A stretch of 64,000 bases of DNA from Shouchella hunanensis. GTDB taxonomy: Bacteria > Bacillota > Bacilli > Bacillales > Bacillaceae_D. The notes beneath the pieces are model-generated. The model did not search any database and was not told the origin of the DNA. It worked only from the letters and a program-made list of their open reading frames with translations. This document shows, piece by piece, positions 1 through 63,074 of this stretch. The position numbers were made by a program, and so were the translations under genes. Positions within the stretch are counted from its first letter, which is position 1, and each line of letters starts with the position of its first letter. The stretch spans positions 1,724,001 through 1,788,000 of the forward strand of contig NZ_CP117834.1 of assembly GCF_028735875.1 (NCBI RefSeq), given 5' to 3'.

Positions 1-1
1 T

Positions 2-2337: not shown

Positions 2338-2351
2338 AAGGGAGGCAGAGG

Positions 2352-2678: not shown

Positions 2679-2692
2679 AAAGGAGGGAGAGG

Positions 2693-4849: not shown

Positions 4850-4884
4850 ACGTTCCTTTTTGTCGTGAAGAGGGAGGATAAGAC

Positions 4885-5919: not shown

Positions 5920-5937
5920 CAAGAAAGGGCGGTATCT

Positions 5938-6453: not shown

Positions 6454-6539
6454 AAAGTTGGTTGGGGAAATCTATGAACCTCTTAGAATTTAAGTGGATA
6501 GATGTTAGGATGAACCAAAATTAAAAGGAGATGAGGAAG

Positions 6540-6914: not shown

Positions 6915-7073
6915 TTTTTTTAATATTCTTTAGTTTATAGGATAATATTTATTAAAGAGTTAACGTATTATGTTTTGAGAAAGAAACATAATTATTAGTT
7001 AATCAGATAAAAACATATGTACTCGTTTTTGTTGTATACTTTTATAAGTAAATTACTGAAGGATGTGCAACAA

Positions 7074-8135: not shown

Positions 8136-8159
8136 TTATTTTTGCTAGGGGGTTAATCT

Positions 8160-9557: not shown

Positions 9558-9578
9558 CTTTAATGAGAGGGATGAATT

Positions 9579-10601: not shown

Positions 10602-10738
10602 TGTTGAACTATTTTCATGTTAAATATTGTTTAAAAACGAATTGTATTTAAATTATCTAATGAAAAAGGCACTAATGTGATTGTTTTGGTTAATTTATTT
10701 CTTGTAAATAGTTTCTTATATAATACGTGAGGTATAAT

Positions 10739-11010
10739 CTGCAAACCAAAATGCTAACAAACTTATAACAAACACATGGAATTAGTGAGACCAAACATGG
10801 GAGAGATACATCAACAATCCTATAATCATGGGCTTCATGGAAAAGCGAAGCCCATACAAATCCCCTGATACAGAAATGGTGTGGTGGTGCTCAGTAATTT
10901 ACTGTTTTTAACAGGCTCATAAGTGCTGTCACATTAGGCTTTTCTAACAATGAAAATGTTCTTTATTTTTTATAGATAAGAAATGCAAACCTTTATCACT
11001 TTAAAGTGTA
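10739..11010 (+). repeat. Structured intergenic repeat, copy 1 of 4
   Basis: First copy of a repeat seen again at 17105, 22299 and 23941. It begins TGCAAACCAAAATGCTAAC, then ATGGAATTAGTGAGA, a perfect stem ATGGGCTTC/GAAGCCCAT around 10827-10854, the box CCCCTGATACAGAAATGG, and ends at CAAACCTTTATCACTTTAAA. A TATAAT-like box lies directly upstream (10733-10738). Copies 1 and 3 share the 3' variant GTGCTGTCACATTAG instead of the hairpins of copies 2 and 4. No reading frame is conserved, so an RNA or a non-autonomous mobile element is more likely than a gene. Family unknown to me. Confidence 0.75.
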
Positions 11011-11031
11011 ATAGCTATAATGTAGTAACCG

Positions 11032-11220
11032 TCAGGTGCGATTGGTATAGCTGTACTCATAACAATTATGACTACGCGCCAAGAGAATCTTATGGCGGCT
11101 AATTTAAGCATGGATATAGCGATGACTAATGGCGTTAATTAAGCTTTAATTTTCGCTGGTAGCACAATGGTCATTGCCTTTATTTTGTCTTAGTTTATAT
11201 CAAAGAGTAACCAGGAATAA
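11032..11220 (+). pseudogene. Remnant of a DHA2-type MFS multidrug transporter (C-terminal end)
   Basis: Translation of this stretch gives SGAIGIAVLITIMTT, then RQENLMAANLSMDIAM, GVN-stop-ALIFAGSTMVIAFILS-stop-FISKSNQE-stop. This reads like the final periplasmic loop and last membrane helix of an EmrB/QacA-type drug exporter, with two in-frame stop codons and no start. I infer a decayed 3' end of a transporter gene. Together with copy 1 of the repeat it fills the 800-bp gap between the methyltransferase and the short-chain dehydrogenase. Confidence 0.6.
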
Positions 11221-11270
11221 GCTCAAAATGAGAAAACAAGCGTAACAGTTGAATGTAGAGCTTATTAAAA

Positions 11271-11293
11271 GAACCCTAGAGGGTTCTTTTTTT
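11271..11293 (+). terminator. Rho-independent terminator
   Basis: GAACCCTAGAGGGTTC stem-loop followed by seven T. It follows the MFS remnant and isolates the next operon from upstream transcription. Confidence 0.75.
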
Positions 11294-11352
11294 ATCTTGA
11301 AAAGTTGGCGATAGAAAAATCAATTATCTATTAAGAGAAGTTTTTTTTTGGC

Positions 11353-11383
11353 TTGACTTAAAGTTAACTTGAAGGTGTAGTGT
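11353..11383 (+). promoter_or_regulatory. MerR-type promoter and palindromic operator of the redox cluster
   Basis: TTGACT (11353-11358) and TAGTGT (11378-11383) are separated by 19 bp, the overlong spacer typical of MerR-activated promoters. The spacer holds CTTAAAGTTAACTTGAAG (11357-11374), an 18-bp palindrome with one mismatched pair. The likely regulator is the MerR protein encoded at the end of this cluster (14528-14947). The site lies 33 bp before the first gene. Assignment is inferred from spacing and symmetry. Confidence 0.65.
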
Positions 11384-11415
11384 GTAATGTAAATAAGAAA
11401 AGGAGTTGTGAGCGC

Positions 11416-12162
11416 ATGGCAATAAAAGATAAAGTGGTAATCATTACAGGAGCTTCTTCAGGTATTGGTGAAGAAACTGCAAAGCTCCTAGCTTCTAAGG
11501 GCGCAAAATTAGTTTTAGGTGCACGCCGAGAAGAAAAATTGAAAGAGATTGCTCAGCATATATCCGACAGCGGTGGTAAAGTGGTCTATAAAAAAATGGA
11601 CGTTGTAAATCCTGAAGAAAACGACGATTTAGTATCTTTAGCAAAGGAGACCTATGGAAAAGTAGATGTCATTTTTTTAAATGCGGGAATTATGCCTAAT
11701 TCACCTCTATCTTCCTTAAAAACAAACGAGTGGAACGACATGATTGATATCAACATTAAAGGTGTGTTAAACGGCATAGCGTCTGTAATGCCAGAATTTA
11801 AGAAGCTAAAAAGTGGGCACATTATTACGACGTCTTCTGTTGCGGGATTAAAAGCTTATCCAGGTGGGGCAGTCTATGGTGCGACAAAGTGGGCTGTAAG
11901 AAATTTAATGGAAGTTCTTAGAATGGAATCGGCACAAGAAGGGACAAATATTCGAACGGCGACAATCTATCCTGCCGCTATCAACACAGAATTATTAGGG
12001 ACGATAACTGATCAAGAAACATTAAACGGTTTTACATCTCTTTACGATGAATATGGAATTTCCTCTGAACGTATCGCCAAAGTTGTCGAATTTGCTATTG
12101 ATCAACCTGAGGATGTAAATGTGAATGAGTTTACAGTTGGTCCAACAAATCAGCCCTGGTAG
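11416..12162 (+). CDS. SDR family NAD(P)-dependent oxidoreductase
   Basis: A 248-residue short-chain dehydrogenase/reductase of the classical type. The N-terminal cofactor motif GASSGIGE, the NAG-type motif (LNAGIMP), the catalytic Ser in TTSSVAG and the YGATK (YxxxK) pair are all present. The start is the ATG at 11416, 8 bp after AAAAGGAG; an upstream in-frame GTG at 11380 overlaps the promoter. It is the first gene of a cluster with an aldo/keto reductase, a second SDR, a maltose-type acetyltransferase and a MerR regulator. The substrate cannot be read from sequence; sister proteins are annotated as acting on small carbonyl compounds. Confidence 0.88.
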   Translation: MAIKDKVVIITGASSGIGEETAKLLASKGAKLVLGARREEKLKEIAQHISDSGGKVVYKKMDVVNPEENDDLVSLAKETYGKVDVIFLNAGIMPNSPLSSLKTNEWNDMIDINIKGVLNGIASVMPEFKKLKSGHIITTSSVAGLKAYPGGAVYGATKWAVRNLMEVLRMESAQEGTNIRTATIYPAAINTELLGTITDQETLNGFTSLYDEYGISSERIAKVVEFAIDQPEDVNVNEFTVGPTNQPW

Positions 12163-12192
12163 GATAATGCTTGATTAATAGGAGGTATTAAT

Positions 12193-13044
12193 GTGAAAAG
12201 CGTTCGAATAGCTGGCAGAAAAGTTTTTCCGATTGGACTAGGAACAGCTAACATGGGAAGTGACAAGTCAATCTACAACCAAGAGCTTGAGGCAATAAGA
12301 GGTGGATTGGAAGCAGGTATACAGGTTATAGATACAGCAGAAAGTTATGGGAATGGCGATGCCGAGAATCTAGTCGGTCATGCAATTGCTCCTTTTGATA
12401 GAAAGAACTTATTCCTTGTTTCAAAAGTCTTGCCAAGTAATGCTTCAAAAACACAAATACCTGTTAGTATTGACCGTTCGTTAAAGCGCTTAAACACTGA
12501 ATACTTAGATATGTATTTGCTTCATTGGAAAGGGAATATCCCCATTGAAGAGACGGTTCTAGCAATGGAGAAAGTAAAAGATAGCGGGAAAATAAAGGCT
12601 TGGGGTGTATCAAATTTTGACGCCGAGGATATATATGCCTTAAGAAGAATGGACGGTGGTATTAATTGTTCTACAAATCAAGTCCGATACAATTTGGGAG
12701 ATCGTGGCATAGAGTTTGATTTACTTCCTACATTGAATCAATTTGATATGGCCCTAATGGCGTATTCTCCAATAGCTAGAGGAGATCAGTTTGGAGCAAA
12801 TCTTACAAAGCAAAAAAAAGTCATCGAATTGGCAGAAAAATATAATGTTGACGTGTTCCAGATCCTTTTGGCGTGGAGCATTCGAGACGGTCAAACGCTT
12901 GCTATACCTAAGTCTAGCAAAATAGAACATGTCTTAAAAAATGTGGATGCCGCAACGATATCGTTAAATAGTGATGACCTGAGAAAACTAGATGAAGTAT
13001 CACCAAAACCGACAAGTAAGATGCCTTTAGCCTTGTGGTATTAA
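12193..13044 (+). CDS. Aldo/keto reductase
   Basis: A 283-residue NADPH-dependent aldo/keto reductase. The catalytic tetrad is visible: Asp and Tyr in VIDTAESYGNG, Lys in LFLVSKVL, and His in YLLHWKG; a typical IKAWGVSNF segment and the C-terminal IPKSSKIEHV phosphate-binding region follow. The length and the residue order fit soluble cytosolic AKR enzymes. The GTG start at 12193 lies 8 bp after AGGAGGT. Located 30 bp after the SDR gene, so co-transcribed from the MerR-type promoter. Likely reduces reactive aldehydes or ketones; substrate unknown. Confidence 0.9.
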   Translation: MKSVRIAGRKVFPIGLGTANMGSDKSIYNQELEAIRGGLEAGIQVIDTAESYGNGDAENLVGHAIAPFDRKNLFLVSKVLPSNASKTQIPVSIDRSLKRLNTEYLDMYLLHWKGNIPIEETVLAMEKVKDSGKIKAWGVSNFDAEDIYALRRMDGGINCSTNQVRYNLGDRGIEFDLLPTLNQFDMALMAYSPIARGDQFGANLTKQKKVIELAEKYNVDVFQILLAWSIRDGQTLAIPKSSKIEHVLKNVDAATISLNSDDLRKLDEVSPKPTSKMPLALWY

Positions 13045-13104
13045 GAGACATGTTAAAGAAATTTGTTTGAATAGCGTTTAAATATCTAAGGAGGATTTAC
13101 AGTC

Positions 13105-13851
13105 ATGGAAAACATTAAAGGTAAAGTAATCGTTATCACGGGGGCTTCTAGAGGGATTGGAAGAGCTAATGCCATTTATTTATCTAACTTAGGAGCAAAA
13201 GTAGTAATAGGTGATCTTCTTGGCGATCGTTTAGAAACGGTTAAAGACGAAATTCGTTCAAATAAAAATAACGTTATAGCAAAAACCACCGACGTGACAA
13301 AACGTACTGATATAGAGGAGCTTGTATCACTTGCGGTTGAACATTTTGGAAGAGTCGATGTTCTAATTAGTTGTGCTGGAGTGATCCCGCAATCGTATCT
13401 TTACAAGAATGAATATGAAGATTGGGAGAATGCAATTGATGTAAATATTAAAGGTATACTTTATGGTATCGGAGCTGTATTACCGATTATGCATAAACAA
13501 GAAACTGGACATATTATTAATATCTCTTCTATTGGAGCGTATAATGTAGGTCCTGGTGGTGCGGTATATAGTGCAACAAAGCACGCGGTTAGAGCTATTA
13601 CTGAAGGATTAAGGCAAGAAGAAGCAGAGGTTGGTAAGAATGTACGGGTTATGAGTGTTTCGCCGGGGTCAATTGATACAGAATTTACTCATTCAATAAA
13701 AGACAAAGAAATTCGAGCGCAATTTGACAAATTAAGTGAAGATGCCATTGAACCAGAATCCGTAGCTCGAATTATTGCATTTGCGATTAACGAAGAAAAA
13801 GATGTAGGTTTAAATGAAGTAATTATTAGACCGAGTAATCAGGTTTTGTAA
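13105..13851 (+). CDS. SDR family oxidoreductase (second in cluster)
   Basis: A 248-residue short-chain dehydrogenase related to the first SDR of the cluster, sharing the cofactor motif GASRGIGR, CAGVIPQ, a catalytic Ser in INISSIGAY and YSATK. Its C-terminal end (EVIIRPSNQVL) resembles the end of the first SDR (EFTVGPTNQPW), suggesting that the two arose by duplication. The ATG at 13105 has an AAGGAGGA ribosome site. It follows the aldo/keto reductase by 60 bp. Function is probably carbonyl reduction; the substrate is unknown. Confidence 0.88.
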   Translation: MENIKGKVIVITGASRGIGRANAIYLSNLGAKVVIGDLLGDRLETVKDEIRSNKNNVIAKTTDVTKRTDIEELVSLAVEHFGRVDVLISCAGVIPQSYLYKNEYEDWENAIDVNIKGILYGIGAVLPIMHKQETGHIINISSIGAYNVGPGGAVYSATKHAVRAITEGLRQEEAEVGKNVRVMSVSPGSIDTEFTHSIKDKEIRAQFDKLSEDAIEPESVARIIAFAINEEKDVGLNEVIIRPSNQVL

Positions 13852-13942
13852 ATGGTAAACAACGATTTATTTTGAGCAAGTTTATGTTAGTTAACGATTA
13901 TTCGAGACAGAATAATTCAATATGAAACGAAGGATGAATGAC

Positions 13943-14515
13943 ATGGAACAAGATATTTTTGATAGAGACAAAAATGGAGAAATTATTTCAATTGATGATC
14001 CTGAATTTCCAAAGATCGGACAAGCAATCGAAAGAGCACAAAAAATTATCTCTAGGTTAAATAACAGCTATCACGATGCGGCGGCTGTACGATCGATTTT
14101 CAGTGAGCTTACTAGTTCCATCGTGCATGATTCTTTTGAATTGTTGCCTCCTTTTTATACTGACTTTGGACAAAACATCCGTGTAGGTAAAGACGTTTTT
14201 ATTAATCAAGGCTGTACATTCATGGACAGAGGTGGAATTACAATTGAAGATAAAGTCCTTTTTGGACCGAAAGTGAATTTAGTTACGATTAACCATCCTG
14301 TAGCTCCGAACGAACGTAGAAGTACGTATAATAAGCCTATTCATATTAAAAAGGGTGCATGGATTGGAATCAATGCGACGATAATGCCAGGTGTGACAAT
14401 TGGGATAAATTCAATTGTCTCGGCAGGATCAGTGGTAACAAAAGATGTTGACGATAATGTTATCGTTGCCGGGGTTCCTGCTAAAGTAATAAAGCAGATC
14501 AATCCGGATGAATAG
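13943..14515 (+). CDS. Maltose/galactoside O-acetyltransferase-like hexapeptide-repeat enzyme
   Basis: About 190 residues. The N-terminal helical part and the left-handed beta-helix repeats (NIRVGKDVFINQGC, ITIEDKVLFGPKV, IGINATIMPGVTIG) match the LacA/Maa acetyl-CoA-dependent O-acetyltransferases; NHPVAPNERR includes the usual catalytic His region. I prefer the ATG at 13943, about 9 bp after GAAGGATG; the in-frame ATG at 13922 has no ribosome site. This type of acetyltransferase is often found next to SDR/AKR clusters with a MerR regulator. Its TAG stop overlaps the ribosome site of the next gene, so translation of the two may be coupled. Confidence 0.85.
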   Translation: MEQDIFDRDKNGEIISIDDPEFPKIGQAIERAQKIISRLNNSYHDAAAVRSIFSELTSSIVHDSFELLPPFYTDFGQNIRVGKDVFINQGCTFMDRGGITIEDKVLFGPKVNLVTINHPVAPNERRSTYNKPIHIKKGAWIGINATIMPGVTIGINSIVSAGSVVTKDVDDNVIVAGVPAKVIKQINPDE

Positions 14516-14527
14516 GGGGGTTATAAC

Positions 14528-14947
14528 ATTAAAATCGGCGAAGTGGCAACTAATTTAGGAATCAAAGAACATACGCTGAGGTATTACGAACAAATTGGAT
14601 TAATTGTTCCAAAAAGAGATGAAAACAATGTACGTTTGTATTCAAAAGAAGACCAGGATTGGGTTGAGTTTGTCATGCATATGAAAGAAACAGGCATGAC
14701 GTTAGAAAAGCTGAAAAGGTATATAGACCTATGGCATTCAGATGACGATATGGAGGAGCTACTAGCAATTCTAGATGAGCATAAGCAGAATGTAAAAAAT
14801 CAAATATCGGTCTATCAAGCAAACTTAGAACTTCTAGACAAAAAGATAACGTTCTACGAATACAGCAAACAAAATGGAACGGATAAAAATTTATTTAAAA
14901 AGTTTGTAGATGATAACCAGGGTAAAAATAAATCTGAAAAAATATGA
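14528..14947 (+). CDS. MerR family transcriptional regulator, apparent AUU start
   Basis: About 139 residues. The N-terminal winged helix reads KIGEVATNLGIKEHTLRYYE followed by QIGLIVPKRDENNVRLYSKE, the standard MerR DNA-binding domain, then a dimerisation coiled coil (about 75-125). The first strand and helix (KIGEVATNLG) require a start at the ATT at 14528, seven bp after AGGGGGG; the only alternative, GTG at 14543, is 22 bp away and would delete part of the helix-turn-helix. An AUU start is rare and keeps expression low. It probably controls the 18-bp palindrome promoter at 11353. No metal-binding cysteines are visible, so the inducer is likely an organic or stress signal. Confidence 0.82.
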   Translation: MKIGEVATNLGIKEHTLRYYEQIGLIVPKRDENNVRLYSKEDQDWVEFVMHMKETGMTLEKLKRYIDLWHSDDDMEELLAILDEHKQNVKNQISVYQANLELLDKKITFYEYSKQNGTDKNLFKKFVDDNQGKNKSEKI

Positions 14948-14985
14948 GACAGTTAAATCAAATTAACTGTCTCTTCTTTTATTTT
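14946..14985 (+). terminator. Terminator after merR
   Basis: GAGACAGTTAA and TTAACTGTCTC form an 11-bp perfect stem around a six-base loop, followed by TTCTTTTATTTTT. It overlaps the end of the MerR gene. Confidence 0.8.
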
Positions 14986-15116
14986 TAGAAAAATTGTGTA
15001 AAAATCTACTAAACCCTTGTCCTCAACTGCACTTTAACCCTTACCCTATTAATACTCTTACTGAATAAAAAAACAAAATTCTGTGAGATATTATTTTGAA
15101 AAATGGAGGGATTAAT

Positions 15117-16214
15117 TTGGAAAAGAAACGTATGATCCGGAATGGGGCGCTGGTTGCTGCACCATTGATAGCTGTTGGTGCCATTATACAATTTACCCTT
15201 GCCGATTCCAGTGGAGAAAATAATGTAAGTGCAGACGAAAATGAAACGGAAACGGTTGAATGGGACAAGACATTCCCTGAAAACGAAAATGTGGAACACC
15301 AAAAAGTTACGTTTGAAAATAGATACGGAATTGAACTGACCGCAGATATGTACTTACCTTCAAATGTGGAAGATTTAGAGAACATGGAAGCAATTATAGT
15401 GGGTCACCCATTTGGAGGTGTTAAAGAACAAACATCCGGACTATATGCACAAGAAATGGCAGATCGAGGGTTTGTGACAATTGCTTTTGATGCATCATTT
15501 AATGGTGAGAGTGGCGGCGAACCGAGGAATATTGCATCTCCAGAAGCATTTGTAGAAGATTTTAGTGCCGCGGTTGATTTCTTAGGTACACAAGAATTTA
15601 TAGATCGCGATCGAATTGGTGTTATTGGCGTTTGTGCAAGTGGGGGCTTCTCGATCAGTGCTGCATCAGCAGACCCTCGATTAAAAGCAGTGGCTACAGT
15701 AAGTATGTACGATATGGGGCGTGCACATCGAGAGGGTCTAGGTTATGCACCAATTCCTGATGAATTTATGACTGAAGAAGAAAGACAATTAGCTTTAGAA
15801 GAATCAGCGGAACAACGTTGGATTGAGTTTGATGGGGGAGAGGTTAGCTATGATTTAGTAGGCGAAGCAGTTCCATTAAAACCTTCACAAGAAGCGGCAG
15901 CAGAAGAGTTCTCAGAGTATTATGGTACGGAAAGAGGTCAGCACCCTCGTTCATTACCAATGACTTTAACAAGTAGAGGCGCACTCATGAATTTTACTCC
16001 ATTTAGTCAAATTGAAACCATTAGCCCTAGACCTATGTTATTTATAGCAGGTGAAGAAGCTCATTCAAGATATTACAGCGAAGAAGCGTATGAATTAGCT
16101 TCTGAACCAAAAACTTTAGAAATTGTACCAAATGCAGGGCACGTTGACTTATATGATCAAGTTGATTTAATCCCATTTGATACATTAGAGAGTTTCTTTT
16201 CGGAGAATCTTTAA
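15117..16214 (+). CDS. Secreted or membrane-anchored alpha/beta hydrolase
   Basis: A 365-residue protein with an N-terminal hydrophobic signal/anchor (about residues 7-30), an acidic linker, then an alpha/beta hydrolase fold. The segment EAIIVGHPFGGVKEQ is the first strand/oxyanion loop, RIGVIGVCASGGFS is the nucleophile elbow and NAGHVDLYD supplies the catalytic His. The elbow GVCASGG places a cysteine or serine as nucleophile, as in dienelactone hydrolase-like and YcjY-type proteins. The TTG start at 15117 has a GGAGGG site 6 bp upstream. It stands between two terminators, so has its own transcript. Substrate unknown; esterase or peptidase activity is possible. Confidence 0.8.
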   Translation: MEKKRMIRNGALVAAPLIAVGAIIQFTLADSSGENNVSADENETETVEWDKTFPENENVEHQKVTFENRYGIELTADMYLPSNVEDLENMEAIIVGHPFGGVKEQTSGLYAQEMADRGFVTIAFDASFNGESGGEPRNIASPEAFVEDFSAAVDFLGTQEFIDRDRIGVIGVCASGGFSISAASADPRLKAVATVSMYDMGRAHREGLGYAPIPDEFMTEEERQLALEESAEQRWIEFDGGEVSYDLVGEAVPLKPSQEAAAEEFSEYYGTERGQHPRSLPMTLTSRGALMNFTPFSQIETISPRPMLFIAGEEAHSRYYSEEAYELASEPKTLEIVPNAGHVDLYDQVDLIPFDTLESFFSENL

Positions 16215-16222
16215 ATTAACTT

Positions 16223-16254
16223 GGAGTGGCTCTGATTAAGAGCTTCTCTTTTTT
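16223..16254 (+). terminator. Probable terminator after the hydrolase gene
   Basis: GCTCTGATTAAGAGC hairpin followed by TTCTCTTTTTT, just after the hydrolase stop codon and 20 bp before the next gene. Confidence 0.6.
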
Positions 16255-16274
16255 ACAGAGGGGTATAAATAATA

Positions 16275-16820
16275 ATGAACTATAAAAAGTTAGTTATTTT
16301 TACACTAGTGTTTTTCCTAATCGGCTGTTCAACGGAAGACCAAATAGATTCAAATGAGGACGATAATATTGAAAATGATATCACAAATAACGACGAAGCC
16401 GGAGAAATAAACGAAGGTGGAGAGGAAAGGGATTTAGAAGATCAGATTGAAAGTGAGGTGGATTCAATGAATCAAATACAATTTACATTTGAAAACGGGA
16501 CTTTTAATGGCGTTTTATATGAGAATGAAACAACTAATGCTTTAATTGAACAGTTGCCGTTGTCCATTACAATGGTAGATTTGCACAACAACGAGAAATA
16601 TTATGATTTAGATGAATCGTTGCCAACACAGAGTGAACGCGTGAACAATATATCAAAAGGTGATTTAATGCTTTTTAATTCAAATACACTTGTCTTGTTC
16701 TATGAAGATTTCTCAACGTCCTATTCTTATACGAAGTTGGGATATGTTGAAGACCCTGATCAACTGGGGCCGGTCTTAGGCACGGGAGATATAGAAGTAA
16801 ACATTCAATTAATTAACTAA
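16275..16820 (+). CDS. Lipoprotein with cyclophilin-like domain
   Basis: A 181-residue lipoprotein: signal peptide with lipobox LIGC, an acidic Asn/Glu/Asp-rich linker (about residues 22-68), then a C-terminal domain of about 110 residues. That domain (IQFTFENGTFNGVLYEN, LIEQLPLSITMVDL, KGDLMLFNSNTLVLFYE, GTGDIEVNI) matches the small cyclophilin-like fold proteins (Cyclophil_like family) which often neighbour SDR/AKR and flavodoxin genes in Firmicutes. These lack demonstrated prolyl isomerase activity. An AGAGGGG ribosome site precedes the ATG at 16275. Function unknown; extracytoplasmic at the outer face of the membrane. Confidence 0.75.
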   Translation: MNYKKLVIFTLVFFLIGCSTEDQIDSNEDDNIENDITNNDEAGEINEGGEERDLEDQIESEVDSMNQIQFTFENGTFNGVLYENETTNALIEQLPLSITMVDLHNNEKYYDLDESLPTQSERVNNISKGDLMLFNSNTLVLFYEDFSTSYSYTKLGYVEDPDQLGPVLGTGDIEVNIQLIN

Positions 16821-17104
16821 CTAACCTTTTTTAGAATTCTAGGTTTTTTTATAGGAATTCCTTTATCCATAAAGCTGTAGGGTTTGATGTTTGGCAATTT
16901 TAAAAGGGACTTAAGACGATTTACCTCTGTTTAAATTCTGAAAAGAGAAGATAAAAATCTCTCTAGACTAAAAGAGTATAACTGTACTGGATGCAATATA
17001 AAATAGAATTAAAGCGTAGTATGAACAAAAATTTAACTAGCTCCATTAGTAAATTGCTTAGTTCAAAAGATGAAGTTTCTACTATATATAATGTGCTAAC
17101 TAAT

Positions 17105-17380
17105 TTGCAAACCAAATTGCTAACAAACTAATAACAAACAGATGGAATTAATGAGATCGAACAGGGGAGAGAGGCACCATCAATCCTTTATTCATGGGCT
17201 TTACGGAAAGGTGAAGCTCGTGCAAAACCCCTGATACAGAAATGGTAAGGTGGGGGTAAGCGGTTCAAGTCCGCTTGGAAGCTTTCGTATAGGTACTGGT
17301 ACATTAGGGTTTCTCCGGTGATGGAGGGGCTTATTTTTTTGTGAAAAGGGGTTTGCATAAAAAATCACAAACCTTTTACA
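17105..17380 (+). repeat. Structured intergenic repeat, copy 2 of 4 (most complete)
   Basis: The most complete copy. In order: GCAAACCAAATTGC mini-hairpin; GATGGAATTAATGAGATCGA; the stem GGGCTT/GAAGCTC; box CCCCTGATACAGAAATGG; hairpin region AAGCGGTTCAAGTCCGCTTGG (17258-17278, which can also fold as CAAG-TCCG-CTTG); GTACTGGTAC; CTCCGGTGATGGAG followed by GGCTTATTTTTTT, a terminator-like end; and GGTTTGCA, the inverse of the starting TGCAAACC. A TATAAT box lies 17 bp upstream. The 650-bp gap between the lipoprotein gene and 17467 is essentially this element plus its upstream flank. Confidence 0.8.
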
Positions 17381-17466
17381 GATAGATCAGTTAAATTTTT
17401 TGAAAGGTAGCTGGAATCCTTTTTAAGATTAAATATTATCATATTTATAAATTTTACAGATAAGTC

Positions 17467-17652
17467 TTAGAATAGAAAAGCTATAATTACAACAACTATT
17501 AATGCCATTGGAACAAGGATTAAATACATTTTAGAAAAAGTACTCATACTTTTTTCATTGCTATAATTAGAATCTGTTGAGTTCATTGCGATGAGCGTAA
17601 CTATTAATCCGACAACACAAATAATTGAAGCGAAAAGTATAATCCAAATCAT
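17467..17652 (-). CDS. Small membrane protein, two spans
   Basis: A 61-residue protein with two hydrophobic segments (residues about 2-22 and 43-61) joined by a polar Ser/Asn-rich loop. A GAGGAG ribosome site lies 11 bp before the ATG, which supports it as real despite the small size. I recognise no family. It stands alone between copy 2 of the repeat and the DsbA-like gene. Confidence 0.55.
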   Translation of the reverse strand: MIWIILFASIICVVGLIVTLIAMNSTDSNYSNEKSMSTFSKMYLILVPMALIVVVIIAFLF

Positions 17653-17794
17653 TTAATTGAGTCTCCTCATAATATATTTTATAAAACTGTATGTATGTCG
17701 TAAGTCTAACATAGAAAACCTAGCAATATTTTGTATATTACTAGGTTTTTAAATGACCTAAAAACAAACGTTTTGTGAAAAATTCTTTAGTTTA

Positions 17795-18421
17795 TTACAT
17801 TGCTTCATTTAAACGTATTTCCAATTTTTCATTAGTCATAACTCCTCCGCCAAGAGGAATTAATTCATCACCTTTTTTAAGAAGCAATGTCGGAAAACTA
17901 TTGATCCCCAGAGCTTGAACCTGTTCAAATTCATTATAGGCGTCTTTGGCAGAAATATTACTATTAAATCTATTTATCACAGCGTCTGCATCTAAACTGT
18001 TGTTTCTAGCAATTTCAAGATATGTTTTCTCAGAACTTAGACTTTTTCCTTCAACATAAAATTTAATCTGCATTTCCGAAGCTAATTTATAGGCTTTATC
18101 AGGGGCAAAGTACTTCAAAGCTGACAGCCCTCTAGCAGCGGCTTCTGAATCTAATACAAAAGAGCCTTCCTCTAATAGCTTTTCGTATTTTTCTCCAAAT
18201 TCTGCCCCTGTTAACTTGTGAATTCTCTTGTTAGCTTCTGGAATATGCGGGTAAGAGCCTATCGAGCTCTTCTTAGATCCAATAAATAAGCCACCTGACA
18301 AAACGGTTAATTTCAACTCAGGATGGGATGCGTGGAAAGCCTTTAAACTATCAGAGAAACCGTAGCACCATCCACAATATGCATCCCACACATAGACAAG
18401 AGACATCCCTTTATTGTTCAT
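17795..18421 (-). CDS. DsbA/FrnE-family thiol oxidoreductase
   Basis: A 208-residue cytosolic (no signal peptide) thioredoxin-fold protein of the DsbA/FrnE type. The active site CGWC sits near residue 16 in VYVWDAYCGWCYGF, and the cis-Pro loop reads GINSFPTLLL near residue 170; an alpha-helical insertion lies between. An AAAGGAG site precedes the ATG. It is the last gene of a three-gene operon with an NAD(P)-binding protein and an azoreductase, opposite an Rrf2-type regulator, which suggests a thiol or quinone stress response. FrnE-like proteins act as disulfide isomerases or detoxification accessory factors. Confidence 0.82.
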   Translation of the reverse strand: MNNKGMSLVYVWDAYCGWCYGFSDSLKAFHASHPELKLTVLSGGLFIGSKKSSIGSYPHIPEANKRIHKLTGAEFGEKYEKLLEEGSFVLDSEAAARGLSALKYFAPDKAYKLASEMQIKFYVEGKSLSSEKTYLEIARNNSLDADAVINRFNSNISAKDAYNEFEQVQALGINSFPTLLLKKGDELIPLGGGVMTNEKLEIRLNEAM

Positions 18422-18460
18422 AGTAAGAATAAACTCCTTTCGATTTATAAATTGTCGTTT

Positions 18461-19099
18461 TTAGCGTTCTCCAACTACAGCAAAACGCTCATTCTTATGC
18501 ATTGGATTTTCAATTTCATCAAGAACAGCAATAGCATAATCTGCGTAGCTAATATAACTCTCACCCTTAGCATTTAAAATTAATTGATCTTTACCTTTTA
18601 AATAAGTTCCATTTCTATTTCCTTCTGGATCAAAAAAACCTCCGGGACTAATATAAGTCCATTGAATTCCTGTGGAATTTTTGAGTTCTTCTAAATTATC
18701 CCCCATATTTTTGGCGGTTGGAAGATACGCTTTTGGGAAATCAAGAGTTTCAAAGACCTTTGAAGTGTTTGACTCATCCACATATAGGCTGCCCGCGCCG
18801 CCAACTACAATTAATCTAGTTTCTTGATTATTTTTTAAAGCCTCTAATAATACTCTACCTGCATCAATGTGTTGGTGTTCTTGTCCATTTGGAGCTTTAA
18901 AAGCATTAATCACCACATCGAACTTTACTAAATCTTCTTTTTTTAGATCAAATAAATTCTTCTCAACTATGGCTATATTATCTTTCAATATCTTAGCTGA
19001 ATTGCGGACAATGGCTGTTACTTCATGCCCGCGATCAATTGCTTCATTAAGAATAAAACTACCTGCTTTACCACTAGCTCCAATAATACCAATTTTCAT
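18461..19099 (-). CDS. NAD(P)H-binding oxidoreductase (YwnB/BVR-B-like)
   Basis: A 212-residue atypical SDR of the NmrA/biliverdin reductase B-like group. The Rossmann motif GASGKAGS is at residues 8-15; the rest reads like B. subtilis YwnB, including LIVVGGAGSLYV and WTYISPGGFFDP. An AGGAGG site precedes the ATG. In B. subtilis ywnB is divergently paired with the Rrf2-type regulator gene ywnA, and the same pairing recurs here (the regulator gene starts at 19969). Middle gene of the operon. The substrate is unknown; likely NAD(P)H-dependent reduction of a small electrophile. Confidence 0.82.
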   Translation of the reverse strand: MKIGIIGASGKAGSFILNEAIDRGHEVTAIVRNSAKILKDNIAIVEKNLFDLKKEDLVKFDVVINAFKAPNGQEHQHIDAGRVLLEALKNNQETRLIVVGGAGSLYVDESNTSKVFETLDFPKAYLPTAKNMGDNLEELKNSTGIQWTYISPGGFFDPEGNRNGTYLKGKDQLILNAKGESYISYADYAIAVLDEIENPMHKNERFAVVGER

Positions 19100-19147
19100 G
19101 ATTTTCCTCCTACTTTTATGATGTTAGTGGCTAAAACACTTCTAGTG

Positions 19148-19786
19148 TTAAAACGTTTTAGCCAATTCTTCTGCTCGCTTAATGCCATCCACTTTTATTT
19201 CTTGTGCGTCATCTGGCATCTTGTTATGACCTTCCACAAAAAGCCCTTGAAAAGATGGAACACCAAAAAAGTTCATCATTGTCTCTAAGTGACGATGACC
19301 CATTTCTAGTTCAATTGTTGGGTTTTCTGAATAAATCCCACCACGCGCTTGAATGTGTAGAGCCTTCTTATCGGTTAATAGCCCTATTGGTTGACCATCC
19401 GGTGAATATTTGAATGATTTACCTGCGACAGAAACAGCATCTAGATACGCTTTCATTACTGGTGGATAGGAAAAGTTCCAAAATGGCGTAACAAAAACGA
19501 ACTTGTCAGCTGAAATAAATTGTTCATTTAACTCGTTAAGACGACTAACTTTATTTTTTTCTTGTTCAGTTAGTTCATCAAAATGATTTCCTGATCTTAA
19601 TTTTGCCCAACCACTAAATACCTCTGAATCAATGTGAGGTATATTTTCTTTATACAAATCAATGTGTATGACCTCATCGTTAGGGTTTAGTTCTTTATAT
19701 TTCTCAATAAACGCTTTTCCTGTTGCCATACCAACTGATGTTAAGTGATCGTTAGGGTTTGCTGTAATATACAATAAAGATGTCAA
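19148..19786 (-). CDS. azoR: FMN-dependent NADH-azoreductase
   Basis: A 212-residue flavodoxin-fold quinone/azo reductase of the AzoR (AcpD) family. The N terminus [20 protein letters not shown] is the FMN phosphate loop and [14 protein letters not shown] is the flavin-ring contact, followed by [14 protein letters not shown] and [12 protein letters not shown]. It starts with TTG at 19786, preceded by AAAGGAAG. First gene of the leftward operon; its upstream region contains an Rrf2-type inverted repeat (19841-19874). These enzymes reduce quinones and azo compounds with two electrons and protect against thiol-specific stress. Confidence 0.88.
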
Positions 19787-19840
19787 TTATTTTACTTCCT
19801 TTCATAAATCAAGTATTGTTAAGTTGTCACAAAAACAGTT

Positions 19841-19874
19841 ACAACTTATGTAACCATAATAGTTACAAGGTTGT
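19841..19874. promoter_or_regulatory. Inverted-repeat operator for the Rrf2/YwnA-type regulator
   Basis: ACAAC-TTAT-GTAAC-CATAATA-GTTAC-AAG-GTTGT: a nested dyad (GTAAC/GTTAC inside ACAAC/GTTGT) in the 180-bp divergent region between azoR and the Rrf2-type gene. The symmetry and position suggest that the regulator binds here to control both directions; this is inferred. Confidence 0.55.
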
Positions 19875-19968
19875 TTTTTGTCAAGTTTTTTATAAAAGGA
19901 ATTTAATAAGGATGATTTATTGACATACAAACATTTACGATTAAAATAAATTTAGAGGAGTGAATATT

Positions 19969-20370
19969 ATGATAAACACGCGACTTTCTGTAGCTATCCA
20001 TATACTTGCTCTTATATCTAAGGACAATACATTATCCTCCGAAAAGATCGCGAGTAGTGTGAACACCAATCCCGTTGTCATTAGAAGGATTAGAGGTCAA
20101 TTAAAAAAAGCTGGAATTATAGATGTAAAAAGAGGGCTTTCTGGAGCTAGCTTAACAAGAAATCCTATTGATATTGATTTACTTGATATCTATAGAGCTG
20201 TTCATATAAATGAAGAGTTATTCCGGGTTCATAATAATCCAAATCCGGAATGCGAGGTAGGAAGAAACATTCAATCTACACTCAATAGTACGTTTGATGA
20301 GGTACAAGCGAAGTTAGAAAATGAACTTAAAAATATTACATTGGATTACGTTATTAATAAACTTCAATAA
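19969..20370 (+). CDS. Rrf2 family transcriptional regulator (YwnA-like)
   Basis: A 133-residue Rrf2-type winged-helix repressor. The N-terminal RLSVAIHILALIS and the recognition region NTNPVVIRRIRGQLKKAGII match YwnA/YwgB-type members; GLSGASLTRNPIDIDLLDIY is the wing. One cysteine (Cys in NPNPECEVG) is in the place where Rrf2 proteins sense oxidants, but the iron-sulfur cysteine triplet of IscR is absent. I choose the ATG at 19969, after AGAGGAG; a GTG at 19960 overlaps that site. Divergent from azoR-ywnB-dsbA-like, which it probably represses until thiol or quinone stress. Confidence 0.85.
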   Translation: MINTRLSVAIHILALISKDNTLSSEKIASSVNTNPVVIRRIRGQLKKAGIIDVKRGLSGASLTRNPIDIDLLDIYRAVHINEELFRVHNNPNPECEVGRNIQSTLNSTFDEVQAKLENELKNITLDYVINKLQ

Positions 20371-20391
20371 ATCAATAACAGAGTTCAATAA

Positions 20392-20422
20392 AAACAGCCT
20401 AGAGTTTAAGAGGCTGTTTTTA
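20392..20422 (+). terminator. Terminator after the Rrf2-type gene
   Basis: AACAGCCT and AGGCTGTT form a stem around AGAGTTTAAG, followed by a T run. It lies 20 bp after the stop codon. Confidence 0.75.
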
Positions 20423-20460
20423 TAATCAATTATTAAGTAGTAATAATGATGGTCTACACG

Positions 20461-21085
20461 TTATTTCTCGTATAGGTTTTTGCAAAACATCGCGATTGCT
20501 TCTCTCGGAATAGATGGCAACAAATGATTATAAGTGTCTAACGTCGTTGTAATACTTGAATGTCCTAATCTCTCCGCTACTACTTTAACCGGAATCCCTT
20601 GTAAGAGCATCAGAGTAGCATGCGTATGTCAGCGAATTGAGGGCACGTTTGCATCTTATTTCAATTGATACCACTTTCGGTTAAGGTTGCGAGGAATTAC
20701 ATATGTACCTAAGCTAGTACAAACAACTGAATCATTATCCTTATATGTCCTTCCAGCTCGTTCTTTCTCATATTCTACTCGTTCTTTCCGCTTTTCTAAT
20801 TCAGTAATAGTTACTTCGTCTAAATCAATCGTACGAGTAAAACTAGCTTTAGTTTTACCATCTGAAGCCCCGTATGGTGTGTGGGTGACAACAGTGCGTA
20901 ATAAACTGTTTTTAATGTCCACGTCCTTCCAACGAAGACCAAGCACCTCACTACGGCACATGCCTGTCATAGCTGCTAAATGAAAAGCAATATAAAGAGA
21001 ATCGTGTTTACTAGAATTGAGAAATTGTAAAAGCTGTTTTTCATCCCAAACATGAATTTCTTTTCGCTCAATTCGTGCAGTTTAT
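20461..21085 (-). pseudogene. Degenerate tyrosine recombinase (phage/ICE integrase), C-terminal half
   Basis: Reading leftward, the translation gives KEIHVWDEKQLLQFL, YIAFHLAAMTGMCRSEVLGL, then WYQLK-stop-DANVPSIR-stop-HTHATLMLLQGI, VAERLGHSSITTTLDTYNHL. This is the catalytic domain of a Tn916/phage-type integrase with the first catalytic Arg in the TGMCRSE box, GHSS and the nucleophile Tyr in DTYNH. It has two in-frame stops and a 12-bp in-frame deletion that removes the FHDLR catalytic box; the N-terminal arm-binding half is missing. It is inactive. Its orientation and place mean it is not obviously the integrase of the conjugative element at the left end. Confidence 0.82.
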
Positions 21086-21098
21086 GTATTGTATTCAT

Positions 21099-21710
21099 TT
21101 AATTAACATTCTTCCATTTTCCTGATACAGCAGAGAGCATTAACCATGGTTCAATTTTTAAGTTTATTAAAACATGTGCAATTATAGGGGCAAAGGTACT
21201 TCTATCAGTCATTATATAAAGACTAGCTAATAGACATCCCAAAACAGTTGTCGAGATAACAACAGGAATTACTATTTTCACCTCACCGCGCAGCAGTCCC
21301 CAAGCTCCGTGAGCCAAGCCAAAAACTACACCTGAGATTAAAATCTGCAAAATATCTGAAATATTTAATCCTTGTAGAAAGTCCATTAAGAATTGTCTAA
21401 ACAGAACTTCTTCAACAATACCAGTCACTATTGCTGCCCATATTCCAATTAATTTAAGCCAAGATATTTCAAATAAATGTTCTTTTACAAAAGGTAAAGC
21501 AATTATTGTATAACCGACATACCCAATTACAATTAACAAGGCAAACAACCATACATATAGATTATCAAAAATGCCGTCTCTAAAACCTATTCGAGTTTCT
21601 ATAAACCGTTGTGGATCTCCAACAAACCAAAATACAATACTAGTAGTTAAAACGGACGAAATACTAATTAATATCCAAGCTGTCTTGACTCGATCATTAG
21701 TTGATAACAT
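21099..21710 (-). CDS. CPBP family intramembrane metalloprotease
   Basis: A 203-residue polytopic membrane protein with the Abi/CPBP (Rce1-like) glutamic protease motifs: EEVLFR (motif 1, EExxxR), FGLAHG (motif 2) and AHVLINL (motif 3, HxxxN). About six spans. Such proteins process prenylated or peptide substrates, or protect against bacteriocins; the role here is unknown. The ATG at 21710 has an AGAGGT site. It stands alone beside the dead integrase. Confidence 0.8.
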   Translation of the reverse strand: MLSTNDRVKTAWILISISSVLTTSIVFWFVGDPQRFIETRIGFRDGIFDNLYVWLFALLIVIGYVGYTIIALPFVKEHLFEISWLKLIGIWAAIVTGIVEEVLFRQFLMDFLQGLNISDILQILISGVVFGLAHGAWGLLRGEVKIVIPVVISTTVLGCLLASLYIMTDRSTFAPIIAHVLINLKIEPWLMLSAVSGKWKNVN

Positions 21711-21935
21711 AAAACGACCTCTTTCTTACCTTTTATATTTATCAACGTATATGATTTTCAAATTTAATAGTAGTGGCTGGGGTAATTGTTTAAGTTTAAT
21801 TGTAGTGACTGAGGTAATATTTTTTTATTCCTGGTTTTTGTTTAAGGTTTTATACATTGCAGTTTGTTTTGGGTGTACTTAAAACGAACATATATAAAAT
21901 TTGTATTCTTCATAAACAGTAGGGGAGTGATTAAA

Positions 21936-22178
21936 ATGGATGATTTTGTAAAACAAAATGATCTTCAAAACAAGTTAAGGTATGTTCACAAGAGTTCCGA
22001 AAGTATTGAACAACACCTTAGAAATTCAGTGCACTTGAAATTACTTCTGCAAAACGAGGCTGACGAATTAGGTCATTTGACTATTACGAAATTTGTAGAC
22101 GTTTTTCAGGACTTATATACGAGCGGTCAAACGGAAAGTTACGAGTTGTTGAAGGATAGAAGGAAGCCAGTGAAATGA
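21936..22178 (+). CDS. Hypothetical small helical protein
   Basis: An 80-residue, mostly helical, soluble protein (begins DDFVKQNDLQNKLRYVHKSS) that I do not recognise. The ATG at 21936 follows AGGGGAGTG. An in-frame extension upstream to 21864 is possible but has no ribosome site and is hydrophobic in an unconvincing way. The repeat-associated motif GCGCAGTATGACC begins only 8 bp after its stop. Confidence 0.5.
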   Translation: MDDFVKQNDLQNKLRYVHKSSESIEQHLRNSVHLKLLLQNEADELGHLTITKFVDVFQDLYTSGQTESYELLKDRRKPVK

Positions 22179-22298
22179 AGTTATAGCGCAGTATGACCAA
22201 ACTGTGCGTTGTGCTCTTGAGGTAACTTGCCCATTAGTTTAATTGCTTCACTAAAATAGATAGATAAAGTTTCTACGATCATACCGTGTTAACTGGTC

Positions 22299-22526
22299 TG
22301 CAAACCAAATTGCTAACAATTTAATAATGAAATGATGGAATTAATGAGATCGAACAGGAGAGAGGAACAATAACAATCCTATACTCATGGGCTTCATGGA
22401 AAAGTGAAGCCTTGGTATTTTATTACACCTGTGTAAGTGCTGTCACATTAGACTTTTTCTGCTGTCACAAAGTCATTTAATTATTTCAATAAGAAATTGC
22501 AAACCTTTACCACTTTAAAGTGTGGT
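22299..22526 (+). repeat. Structured intergenic repeat, copy 3 of 4 (internally deleted)
   Basis: Shares with the other copies TGCAAACCAAATTGCTAACA, ATGGAATTAATGAGATCGAA, CAATCCTATACTCATGGGC, the stem GGGCTTC/GAAGCC, and the end GCAAACCTTTACCACTTTAA. It lacks the CCTGATACAGAAATGG box, and its 3' half has the GTGCTGTCACATTAG variant also found in copy 1. It fills most of the gap between 22178 and 22529. Confidence 0.7.
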
Positions 22527-22528
22527 AG

Positions 22529-23079
22529 TTATATTGAGTATAAAAATGTAATTCCCCCCATTAGTGAAGGGGGATTAGGTTTGTTAATAAGCAATAATAA
22601 AGTATGTAAACAAGCCAAAGCTAGCTTTATGTTAATCTCTTCATTATAGATTTTTATGTAATTATTTAGTGTGGAACCTTTTCTTTTAGTAATTGATTCT
22701 AGCACCTTTTGGTTGCTTTTGTATAATATTCTATTGCTATTGTCATTTTTAACAAAACTGTATATCTCACCATCTTGACTTATCTCAAACTTTCGAGGGT
22801 TAGCCTGCGCAGATATTGGCTCAATGTTAGCCTGATGTTTAATAATGAATTTCCTTTTGAAACTCCAAGATTCTGTAACAATCACTTGAGTGTTTTTTAG
22901 GTCTTCTATTATTACATTTACACAAGATTTAGGTTCTCTATATGTCAGTATCTTATCAATAAAACCCTTATTAAAACGTCTAAGAGTATAAACATGCTAT
23001 TTAATTTTACTGCCACTGCTTCAGCGTCACTATATGTACTGAAATACTCGGGCTGCTTGTTACGGCTGAGAACAACCAT
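22529..23079 (-). pseudogene. Frameshifted gene of unknown function
   Basis: Reading leftward from an ATG at 23079 gives VVLSRNKQPEYFSTYSDAEA, VAVKLNSMF and then a frame that soon ends; the better-looking continuation, LRRFNKGFIDKILTYREPKS followed by VNVIIEDLKNTQ and a further 120 residues, lies in another frame from about 22990. I infer one gene of about 180 residues broken near 22985-22990. The intact remainder begins formally at GTG 22885 (118 residues). No family is recognised. Its 3' end touches copy 3 of the repeat. Confidence 0.5.
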
Positions 23080-23314
23080 TAAATCGCCCCTAGTTATTCA
23101 GTTTGCCACATTAATCCTTAATTAGATAAGGGGATAATTGACAAAAGATTAGAAACTAATTCGCAGTATGAAAAAAGGCAAACTTCGTAATATCCATAAA
23201 CTGAGCGATACCTAGAGAAATTTATAAGAGGCTTCACCCCATGGCATGTAAGAAGAGTAAAATAATAGTATGACAAAATGATTTTTTCAAATATAGAGAA
23301 GAGAGGCAGGACTT

Positions 23315-23851
23315 ATGACAAATGATTTGGGTAAATTTCTCAGTCTGATTTTAAGGCACAAACCTGAAGAAATCGGAATTACGTTAGATAAAAATGGTTA
23401 TGCAAACGTAAATCTTCTTATTGAAAAAATGACTAAGTATGGGAAAAATATTGATCTCGTCACTTTAGAAGAGCTTGTCATCACTGATGAAAAGAACCGG
23501 TACAGCTTTAATGAGACAAAGACTATGGTTAGAGCTAATCAAGGTCACTCTATCTCGCTAAAAATACTTATGAAAGAATGTAGACCACCAAAATGTTTAT
23601 TGCATGGTACCTCTGTTAGTTCTGCAAAAAAAATATTAGAAGCAGGAATATCGAAAATGGAGAGACAATATGTTCACCTCACGGATGATCGGCTCACAGC
23701 AATAGCTGTTGGTGAAAGACGTGGCAATGCAATAATTCTAGAGGTCGCTACAGAGCAAATGTATCTAGATGGATTTATATTTTATTTATCTGATAACAAT
23801 GTTTGGCAAACAGAAAAAGTACCGAGTAAATATTGTAGAGTGATTAACTAG
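23315..23851 (+). CDS. kptA: RNA 2'-phosphotransferase (KptA/Tpt1)
   Basis: A 178-residue KptA/Tpt1-family enzyme, which in eukaryotes removes the splice-junction 2'-phosphate from tRNA using NAD+ and in bacteria has no settled role. The N-terminal LSLILRHKPEEIGI holds the conserved Arg-His, and RANQGHSI, LHGTSV, HLTDD and GERRGNAIILEV are the NAD- and phosphate-binding motifs in order, so it appears intact. Start ATG at 23315 with an AGAGGCAGG site. It lies between copies 3 and 4 of the repeat, and a collapsed second copy exists at 37112. It may repair 2'-phosphorylated or NAD-capped/ADP-ribosylated nucleic acids; that is inference. Confidence 0.9.
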   Translation: MTNDLGKFLSLILRHKPEEIGITLDKNGYANVNLLIEKMTKYGKNIDLVTLEELVITDEKNRYSFNETKTMVRANQGHSISLKILMKECRPPKCLLHGTSVSSAKKILEAGISKMERQYVHLTDDRLTAIAVGERRGNAIILEVATEQMYLDGFIFYLSDNNVWQTEKVPSKYCRVIN

Positions 23852-23940
23852 ACGATATGACCAAAAATGTATGAGTAAACTTTTAGGCTTAGTAATTTTG
23901 CTCCAAGTATGTTTTCTGTTACATGCTGTTCTAACTAAAA

Positions 23941-24210
23941 AGCAAACCAAATTGCTAAGAAACTAATTACAAACAGGTGGAATTAATTAGATCTAATGGG
24001 GGAGGAAGGCACCAACAATCCTATATTCACAGGCTTCATGGAAAAGTGAAGCCCGCTCAAAACCCCTGATACAGAAATGGTAAGATGGTGGTCAGCCAAG
24101 TCCGCTTGGAAGCTTTCGTATAAGTACTAGTACATTAAGGTTTCTCCGATGATGGAGGAGCTTATTTTTTGCGTAAAAAGCGGTTTGCAAACAAATTGAA
24201 AACCTTTACC
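23941..24210 (+). repeat. Structured intergenic repeat, copy 4 of 4
   Basis: Very close to copy 2 in its 3' half: CCCCTGATACAGAAATGGTA, hairpin CCAAG-TCCG-CTTGG, GTACTAGTAC, CTCCGATGATGGAG followed by GCTTATTTTTT, and GGTTTGCA. Compared with copy 2, the base changes fall as G/A in GTACTRGTAC and CTCCGRTGATGGAG without breaking the stems. It begins 90 bp after the kptA stop. The remaining 450 bp to the terpene synthase contain a weak terminator-like GAGCTTGCTC hairpin near 24315 and AT-rich sequence with no gene that I can support. Confidence 0.8.
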
Positions 24211-24499
24211 TTAATAAATTGTAGAAGAAATACTATACTTTATTTTAATTTCATACGAGATTAACTAGAAAAGAATGCATATAAAGTATTATCCTTTTTA
24301 GTAATCTCCATTGAGCTTGCTCTTTAGAGGGGGGCTTTTATGTGTTCTCAAAAACGCTGATGAAAGGATAGCGAGGGGTCAAGGTATTTTAACTTTGTTG
24401 TTTTTTTATGATTATTTTTATATAAGACTAATGAATTTCCTACTTGGGAAATAGGTTTAATATCAGGGAAAATAGATTACTTATTAACTAAAAGATGTA

Positions 24500-62918: not shown

Positions 62919-63074
62919 GACATCAGCTCCTTTACCGTTATGATTATAGCAATCCTAAAGCACCTTTTGAAGACACACGCATAAAGTAAAATTGTGAAGA
63001 ACCATTGAACATAATTGACGACGGTTCTTCCATCCTATATGATGAATCTTGTATGATTGGATAAGACTCATACA

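Follow-up and report, generated by a model that had tools for sequence, protein, structure and literature searches.

Intergenic repeats of Shouchella hunanensis as probable attachment-site joints of mobile units stacked behind tRNA-Thr(GGT)

The 4.06-Mb chromosome of Shouchella hunanensis (genome G000, contig NZ_CP117834.1) carries, within the 64,000-nucleotide stretch analyzed here (positions 1,724,001 to 1,788,000, called the window), four copies of an intergenic repeat that a first-pass annotation took for either a multicopy small RNA gene or a non-autonomous mobile element. Sequence comparison makes it very probable that these repeats are attachment (att) joints in a tandem array of mobile units stacked behind a tRNA-Thr(GGT) gene. 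With the same high confidence, each copy can be read as a composite att site, in which the right end of one unit meets the left end of the next. The 5′ part of ~155 nt common to the copies, called the module, is the predicted right end of an integrated unit, and the 3′ part, or tail, the predicted left end of its neighbor. The two parts are joined at ATGGTAA, the anticodon loop of tRNA-Thr(GGT).

Repeat joints, the target tRNA gene, and the adjoining element

A repeat search of the window returned all four copies as direct repeats (family D7, at 10719, 17085, 22278, and 23920) and two families in their 3′ parts, D9 in copies 2 and 4 and D10 in copies 1 and 3. When a 301-nt copy-2 query was run against the whole chromosome, six matches were found (E-values from 2.1e-155 to 2.4e-22, far beyond chance): the four window copies, one at 2070001 comprising the 5′ part only, and one at 1711196 comprising the 3′ part only, the latter falling inside the intact tRNA-Thr(GGT) gene. 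Both the four copies and the two 3′ subtypes of the first-pass annotation are thus borne out, and the boxes it quoted are present in the sequence, with the CCCCTGATACAGAAATGG box missing from copy 3, as it had said. Copies 2 and 4 start with TGCAAACC and finish with GGTTTGCA. The copy-2 query had no match in plasmid and phage collections.

Profiles were built for the module and for each of two kinds of tail, here called tRNA-type and sub1, and were run over the fetched loci; it should be noted that the training set included some of the searched loci, so matches there hold by construction. The order in the window is U1, copy 1, U2, copy 2, U3, copy 3, U4, copy 4, and U5, and the features given below are on the + strand unless stated otherwise. 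Each module was found as a profile match: that of copy 1 at the right end of U1 (10735..10889; E = 2.9e-44, this copy being in the training set; core ATGGTGT at 10876-10882), that of copy 2 at the right end of U2 (17101..17255; core ATGGTAA at 17242-17248), that of copy 3 at the right end of U3 (22294..22417; truncated, with the core lost), and that of copy 4 at the right end of U4 (23941..24091; core ATGGTAA at 24077-24083).

The intact tRNA-Thr(GGT) gene lies 12.8 kb upstream of the window (1711165-1711237 of the chromosome), after the 23S, 5S, and tRNA-Asn genes. Copies 2 and 4 resemble it from position 32, where the anticodon loop begins, on through the terminator. The tRNA 3′ half of copy 2 (tRNA positions 32-73, window 17242..17283) is 98% identical to the intact gene, and that of copy 4 (24077-24114) is 86% identical, with a 4-base gap. 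A terminator-like hairpin with a T run in the left end of U3 (17307..17340) is also present after the intact gene. Of the ten matches to tRNA-Thr in the genome, one is the intact gene, two are the 3′ halves, and the other seven, at 73–83% identity, were taken for other tRNA genes. Tyrosine integrases cross over within a short core, and the anticodon stem-loop of this tRNA, CACC-ATGGTAA-GGTG, forms a symmetric core. The tRNA array itself is interrupted: tRNA-Glu, the next gene in a relative (locus L029), sits 69 kb onward, at window position 56601. Nine relatives without a full module were also aligned; judged by eye, terminator-like sequence follows tRNA-Thr in G001, G002, and G005 and partially in G008 and G018, and is not seen in G007, G010, G016, and G031. 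On contig C11 of genome G006 (L061, 2870-2910), a different, non-tRNA sequence precedes a tRNA-Thr 3′ half; it is possibly the right end of another type of element with the same crossover.

The unit adjoining the tRNA gene, U1, starts at tRNA-Thr(GGT) (1711165) and measures 23.7 kb up to copy 1, its right part occupying 1..10876 of the window. Its predicted genes are those of an integrative and conjugative element (ICE) of the Tn916/ICEBs1 type: an integrase, an excisionase, a MobT-type relaxase, a coupling protein, and a VirB4 ATPase occur together. The tRNA is followed by a 503-aa gene and then by the integrase gene (371 aa, 1712988-1714103), whose product has the domains Arm-DNA-bind_4, Phage_int_SAM_3, and Phage_integrase. 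Downstream are genes for a Peptidase_M78 protein, an HTH regulator, an excisionase-family protein, an FtsK-like protein, a relaxase, and a VirB4-type ATPase. The relaxase matches Rep_trans, and its match to the NCBIfam MobT model is under the curated cut-off (320.8 vs 600 bits). Distant relatives of the integrase with solved structures include the Int of 6emz/6en0, presumably that of Tn1549. The conjugation-type genes are followed by a restriction-modification cargo, in which two genes encode cytosine methylases and one resembles a type II restriction-enzyme gene (window 7017-10601).

Breakpoints at the core and alternative readings

Genome comparison placed two breakpoints in the core. Genome G100, of the same species, shares U4 and the copy-4 module with G000 (99.2% over 1.9 kb), and the two are identical over the last 389 bases, up to CTGATACAGAAATGGT of copy 4; directly after ATGGT, a tRNA-type tail is found in G000 and a sub1 tail in G100. 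This breakpoint is one-sided, because the right-hand neighbors differ. The first-pass annotation was right to link the repeats to mobile elements and to recombination between the 3′ subtypes. U1 and U2 were not found in the compared G100 region (matches over 150 nt). Another breakpoint, at window position 20584, falls within an integrase remnant in U3 and off the core; it looks like a secondary rearrangement.

The second breakpoint is two-sided and comes from G073 and G267, which belong to another family of the order. These genomes have in common a left flank of 4.7 kb (95.9%) that ends in a module and core and a right flank of 1.3 kb (92.5%) that starts at the core. G267 has an extra 3.6-kb unit, absent from G073, with a tRNA-type tail at its start, a second module at its end, and the cores GTGGTAA on the left and ATGGTAA on the right. 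This unit encodes an integrase over three open reading frames (ORFs), 72% identical to the window ICE integrase in a one-frame alignment, and its cargo (L088, 9095-11139) comprises NDT and a reverse transcriptase that match retron II-A models. A Gabija GajA/GajB pair lies directly left of the G073 module (L064, 6872-9563), and both ORFs are also in G267. On contig C63 of G006, about 2 kb separates a left tail from a right module, and the site has no tRNA gene; an empty site for this unit was not found in 13 genomes of the genus when both flanks were sought.

These features can be compared with those used by Islander, which, in the part of PMC4383910 drawn on here, lists the anticodon loop among tRNA subsites. 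As in that scheme, an intact tRNA gene (1711165) is accompanied by 3′ fragments (1741242 and 1748077), all on the + strand, a tyrosine integrase gene lies inside the island, and filled and unfilled sites differ by a breakpoint at the core, two-sided in G073/G267 (not at a tRNA gene) and one-sided in G000/G100 (PMC4383910, same part).

We propose that a Tn916/ICEBs1-type ICE would enter the anticodon loop of tRNA-Thr(GGT) via its own tyrosine integrase, with a crossover at the 7-bp core ATGGTAA, and would rebuild the tRNA using the tRNA 3′ half and following terminator that it carries. Later arrivals, as well as integrase-free cassettes moved by the ICE integrase, would recombine at the resident att sites, so that units would be stacked head to tail; the joints would in consequence have the layout right arm–core–left arm, as in a circular attP. 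The anatomy of the joints, the identity of the tRNA, the ICE-type genes with their integrase, the breakpoints at the core, and the gain or lack of one unit between shared flanks are direct observations; we infer that this one integrase acts on all of these ends, as well as where it binds in the arms, in what succession the events took place, and whether any excision still occurs.

Several observations weigh against this reading. No tRNA gene was found at the G073/G267 site, which means that the element also uses other or relic sites. The partial 5′ module at chromosome position 2070001 (L063, 8001-8112) is isolated, far from the array, and some modules (G9a, G3c, and that of G073) have no recognized tail. 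G005 has an 82-aa integrase remnant by its tRNA-Thr and only a 46-nt piece of the module, and therefore resembles an older case in decay. The left end of U5 is of the tRNA type, yet U5 has no integrase, and profile search recognized no right end for it in the window. In U1, the VirB4-type gene consists of two overlapping ORFs (428 and 407 aa), while G003 and G009 have a single 832-aa ORF, so U1 may not be self-transmissible. Finally, direct repeats of arm type are suggestive by eye but weak against shuffles, the arm similarity in five pairs being reached by 56, 73, 259, 447, and 1540 of 2000 shuffles.

That the array owes its growth and shuffling to homologous recombination between long repeats, and not to an integrase, is improbable. 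The repeat copies, mostly 80–90% identical over about 150 nt, could allow RecA-dependent exchange, and some joints (at 20584 within U3, and at copy 3) are off the core and look like later deletions. However, the two cleanly resolved breakpoints, in two families, both fall in the 7-bp core and nowhere else in the repeat, and a related integrase gene lies beside the tRNA.

The first suggestion of a multicopy gene for a structured small RNA, transcribed from its own promoter to its own terminator, finds no support and is very unlikely. The GGGCTTC/GAAGCCC stem is predicted in five of the six folded copies, two of which outperform about 98% of their shuffles in folding (z-scores of -1.04, -2.09, -0.75, -1.26, +0.41, and -2.11). 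Sliding the stem partner lowers pairing to 27–58%, so the inverted repeat is real. That differences between copies leave the stems paired is correct insofar as 91.7% of cells pair over 16 module copies, but shuffled columns reach 91.4%. On the same 16 copies, the covariation score of the stem did not rise above column shuffles (0.226 vs 0.214, with 153/500 shuffles reaching it). RNAalifold gave -4.13 kcal/mol over 161 columns, with a double change in 2/17 pairs. The inverted repeat is not maintained by compensatory change, and, being near the core, it could as well be a protein site. The TATAAT-like promoters did not hold up either: promoter-like matches are at chance level around copy 1 (3 vs 2.5 expected) and copy 2 (2 vs 1.5 expected), and no + strand match lies upstream of either copy in the regions scanned. 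As for the claimed terminators, one hairpin was found at copy 2 (vs 0.3 expected) and none at copy 1. No relevant match to a described family was obtained in Rfam, whether at gathering cut-offs or, for copies 1 and 2, at relaxed E-values. The terminator and the CCAAG-TCCG-CTTGG stem of copies 2 and 4 belong to the displaced tRNA-Thr 3′ half and the sequence following that gene, and the swap of the 3′ half at the core between strains also speaks against the small-RNA reading.

A non-autonomous transposable repeat, such as a miniature inverted-repeat transposable element or an insertion sequence end, hopping as a unit of ~280 nt is scarcely credible: several copies per genome and the TGCAAACC/GGTTTGCA ends of copies 2 and 4 would suit it, but the tail and module of G006 C63 are separated by about 2 kb of cargo, the G9a module stands without a tail, the gain in G267 is a 3.6-kb unit between two modules and not the repeat, all four window copies have a single orientation, and each repeat is a junction between two larger units, not a free-standing element.

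Stacked units and two kinds of left end

In the array behind tRNA-Thr(GGT), the unit with the intact integrase adjoins the tRNA; after it come a cassette (U2), a unit in decay (U3), and another cassette (U4). U2 (10876..17242) is an integrase-free cassette of 6.4 kb according to a search of its ORFs. Its left end (10872..11015, profile match) is a sub1 tail without the tRNA 3′ half, and its cargo includes short-chain dehydrogenase, aldo/keto reductase, hexapeptide transferase, MerR, and alpha/beta hydrolase-type genes. U3 (17242..22417) is decayed, with a tRNA-type left end, DsbA-like, NAD(P)-binding, flavodoxin-like, Rrf2, and Rce1-like genes, and an integrase remnant on the - strand (20470..21081) that is 90% identical to the ICE integrase over 208 aa and has internal stops. 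Its left end also includes a candidate arm-type site, GGTTTGCA...CAAACC (17350..17375), for which the statistics are weak. U4 (22417..24077) is a 1.7-kb cassette with a partial sub1 tail as its left end (22412..22528, profile match) and an RNA 2′-phosphotransferase gene (Tpt1/KptA, 23315-23851). The left end of U5 (24077..24216), recognized by profile and tRNA match, comprises the tRNA-Thr 3′ half, terminator-like sequence, and a candidate arm-type site. U2 and U4 thus have the makeup of cis-mobilizable elements (CIMEs): att sites lie on both sides, although the left joint of U4 (copy 3) is damaged, and no integrase, conjugation, or other ICE genes were found among the ORFs searched, which included some of the small ones.

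In G003, G009, and G100, too, modules lie behind tRNA-Thr(GGT) and have the same orientation. Among 397 sampled genomes of the order, eight had module matches at E 0.001 and four below 1e-30 (G000, G003, G073, and G267, the last two in one other family). Within the genus, modules were found in 5/13 genomes (G000, G003, G006, G009, and G100). In a search limited to E 1e-60 over a set without G100, the ICE-type integrase was present at 70% or more in G000, G003, G006, and G009, and G100 has a 170-aa remnant; the other eight genomes of the genus had no integrase match of 70% or more at this limit, the best in G004 being 37%. G009 has a second integrase remnant (G009:C1:4206665-4207144, 89%), 22 kb from two sub1 joints (4229560 and 4230627) that bracket a 131-aa ORF, and in G100 a HamA/HamB (Hachiman)-like pair lies beside tRNA-Thr (L067, 2568-6789). 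The exact 18-base start of the repeat was found in 18 stretches of genome contigs from many phyla. Four from the Shouchella group were used (L036, L043, L044, and L053; S. miscanthi, S. oshimensis twice, and Bacillus sp. JCM 19041), and the remaining 14 were set aside as probable chance matches.

The sub1 tails are distant relatives of the tRNA-type tails (profile E down to 8.9e-12). In an unrooted tree of 23 tails (9 tRNA-type and 14 sub1), the two kinds split with a support of 1.000 when the whole alignment is used and of 0.997 when it is cut down to the stretch beyond the tRNA; partial tails (copy 3, its G100 counterpart, L056 14622, and G6_d) were left out. The two kinds of left end also differ in what follows them. 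Among bounded units, an integrase or remnant is present in 6/6 with a tRNA-type left end (U1 and U3 of G000, the first units of G100, G009, and G003, the last with a partial right module, and the G267 unit). An integrase or remnant is present in 0/13 with a sub1 left end (tblastn, E 1e-10; two units in G000, two in G100, three in G009, one in G003, and five in G006), U4 being entered for both strains and one G009 unit having a partial tail inside. The one-sided exact probability, calculated by hand, is 1/27132, a figure that overstates the case, since the compared units are not independent by descent, a point that also counts against our reading. Units unbounded on the right were not counted (G9d, G9f, and G3b with sub1 ends; U5, G6_d, and G6 C11 with tRNA-type ends, among which only C11 has an integrase), nor were those with an unrecognized left tail (the stretches after G9a and G3c and the Gabija stretch of G073/G267).

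The sub1 cassettes have their own left end and many different cargoes and occur in five genomes of the genus. We tentatively suggest, at somewhat less than even confidence, that the units with sub1 ends are a dedicated, long-lived family of integrase-free cassettes of about 1 to 8 kb that gave up the tRNA-restoring segment and use the ICE integrase in trans, forming an integron-like array on a tRNA island. Having no such segment, sub1 units would be restricted to places behind an ICE and to secondary sites. This separate integrase-free group is the less expected part of the finding.

Three further features of the window were recorded. A 2682-aa ORF (41033-49081), adhesin-like by appearance only, contains about sixteen 276-nt repeats at 44.4-48.7 kb. 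A perfect 81-bp tandem duplication lies at 51991-52152, and a single copy in G100 aligns to both. An ordinary glmS ribozyme is found at 63067-63221, with a strong Rfam match.

Relation to known systems

U1 resembles the ICEBs1/Tn916 superfamily in its MobT-like relaxase, FtsK-like protein, Peptidase_M78/HTH pair, and three-domain integrase, which we take to be parts of that superfamily. Its target is the anticodon loop of tRNA-Thr(GGT), unlike that of ICEBs1, which is a tRNA-Leu gene. The array resembles integron cassettes in its small cargoes of one to several genes and in its head-to-tail order bordered by recombination sites. Unlike in integrons, the integrase scores 52.5 bits against a cut-off of 265 bits on the integron integrase model, and is therefore not of the IntI type by that search; recombination here involves att sites derived from a tRNA, and no covariation was seen in the one stem that was tested.

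Tandem accretion of ICEs and CIMEs is a known kind of array. The parts of PMC7563491 and of the review PMC5704250 considered here describe CIMEs and accretion, with the most decayed units furthest from the target gene, and in Streptococcus salivarius units flanked by att sites are likewise stacked by one target gene. As in those islands, the least decayed unit lies by the target and integrase-free units lie further off (PMC7563491, in part). Unlike in S. salivarius, as far as these parts of PMC7563491 go, the integrase-free units here share their own left-end group without the tRNA-restoring part; they look like a family rather than local deletion relics. In addition, one array here contains both an ICE and the remnant of an ICE, and their integrases are closely related, whereas no ICE-ICE tandem is reported for S. 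salivarius in the same parts of that paper. In the portion of PMC3146451 cited, the ssrA islands of Dehalococcoides are likewise numerous and arranged in tandem behind a single RNA gene, and an integration module is present in 16 of them and missing from 15; they involve a serine recombinase and a 20-bp tmRNA repeat, in contrast to the tyrosine integrase and att joints of ~300 nt found here (PMC3146451, same portion). No published description of the present array was found in the literature searched, most subscription papers falling outside it.

In place of a puzzling unknown RNA, the sequence now offers a legible history of genes acquired one after another behind a single tRNA, in which the joints record how the bacterium collects new genes. 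Cargo units can be located by their joint sequence, both in Shouchella and in one further family of the order; restriction-modification genes and genes like those of Hachiman, Gabija, and retron systems are among the cargo of the units looked at. Should the integrase-free group prove to be a true lineage, it would show how small cassettes can persist by relying on the ICE both for movement and for holding their place by the tRNA.

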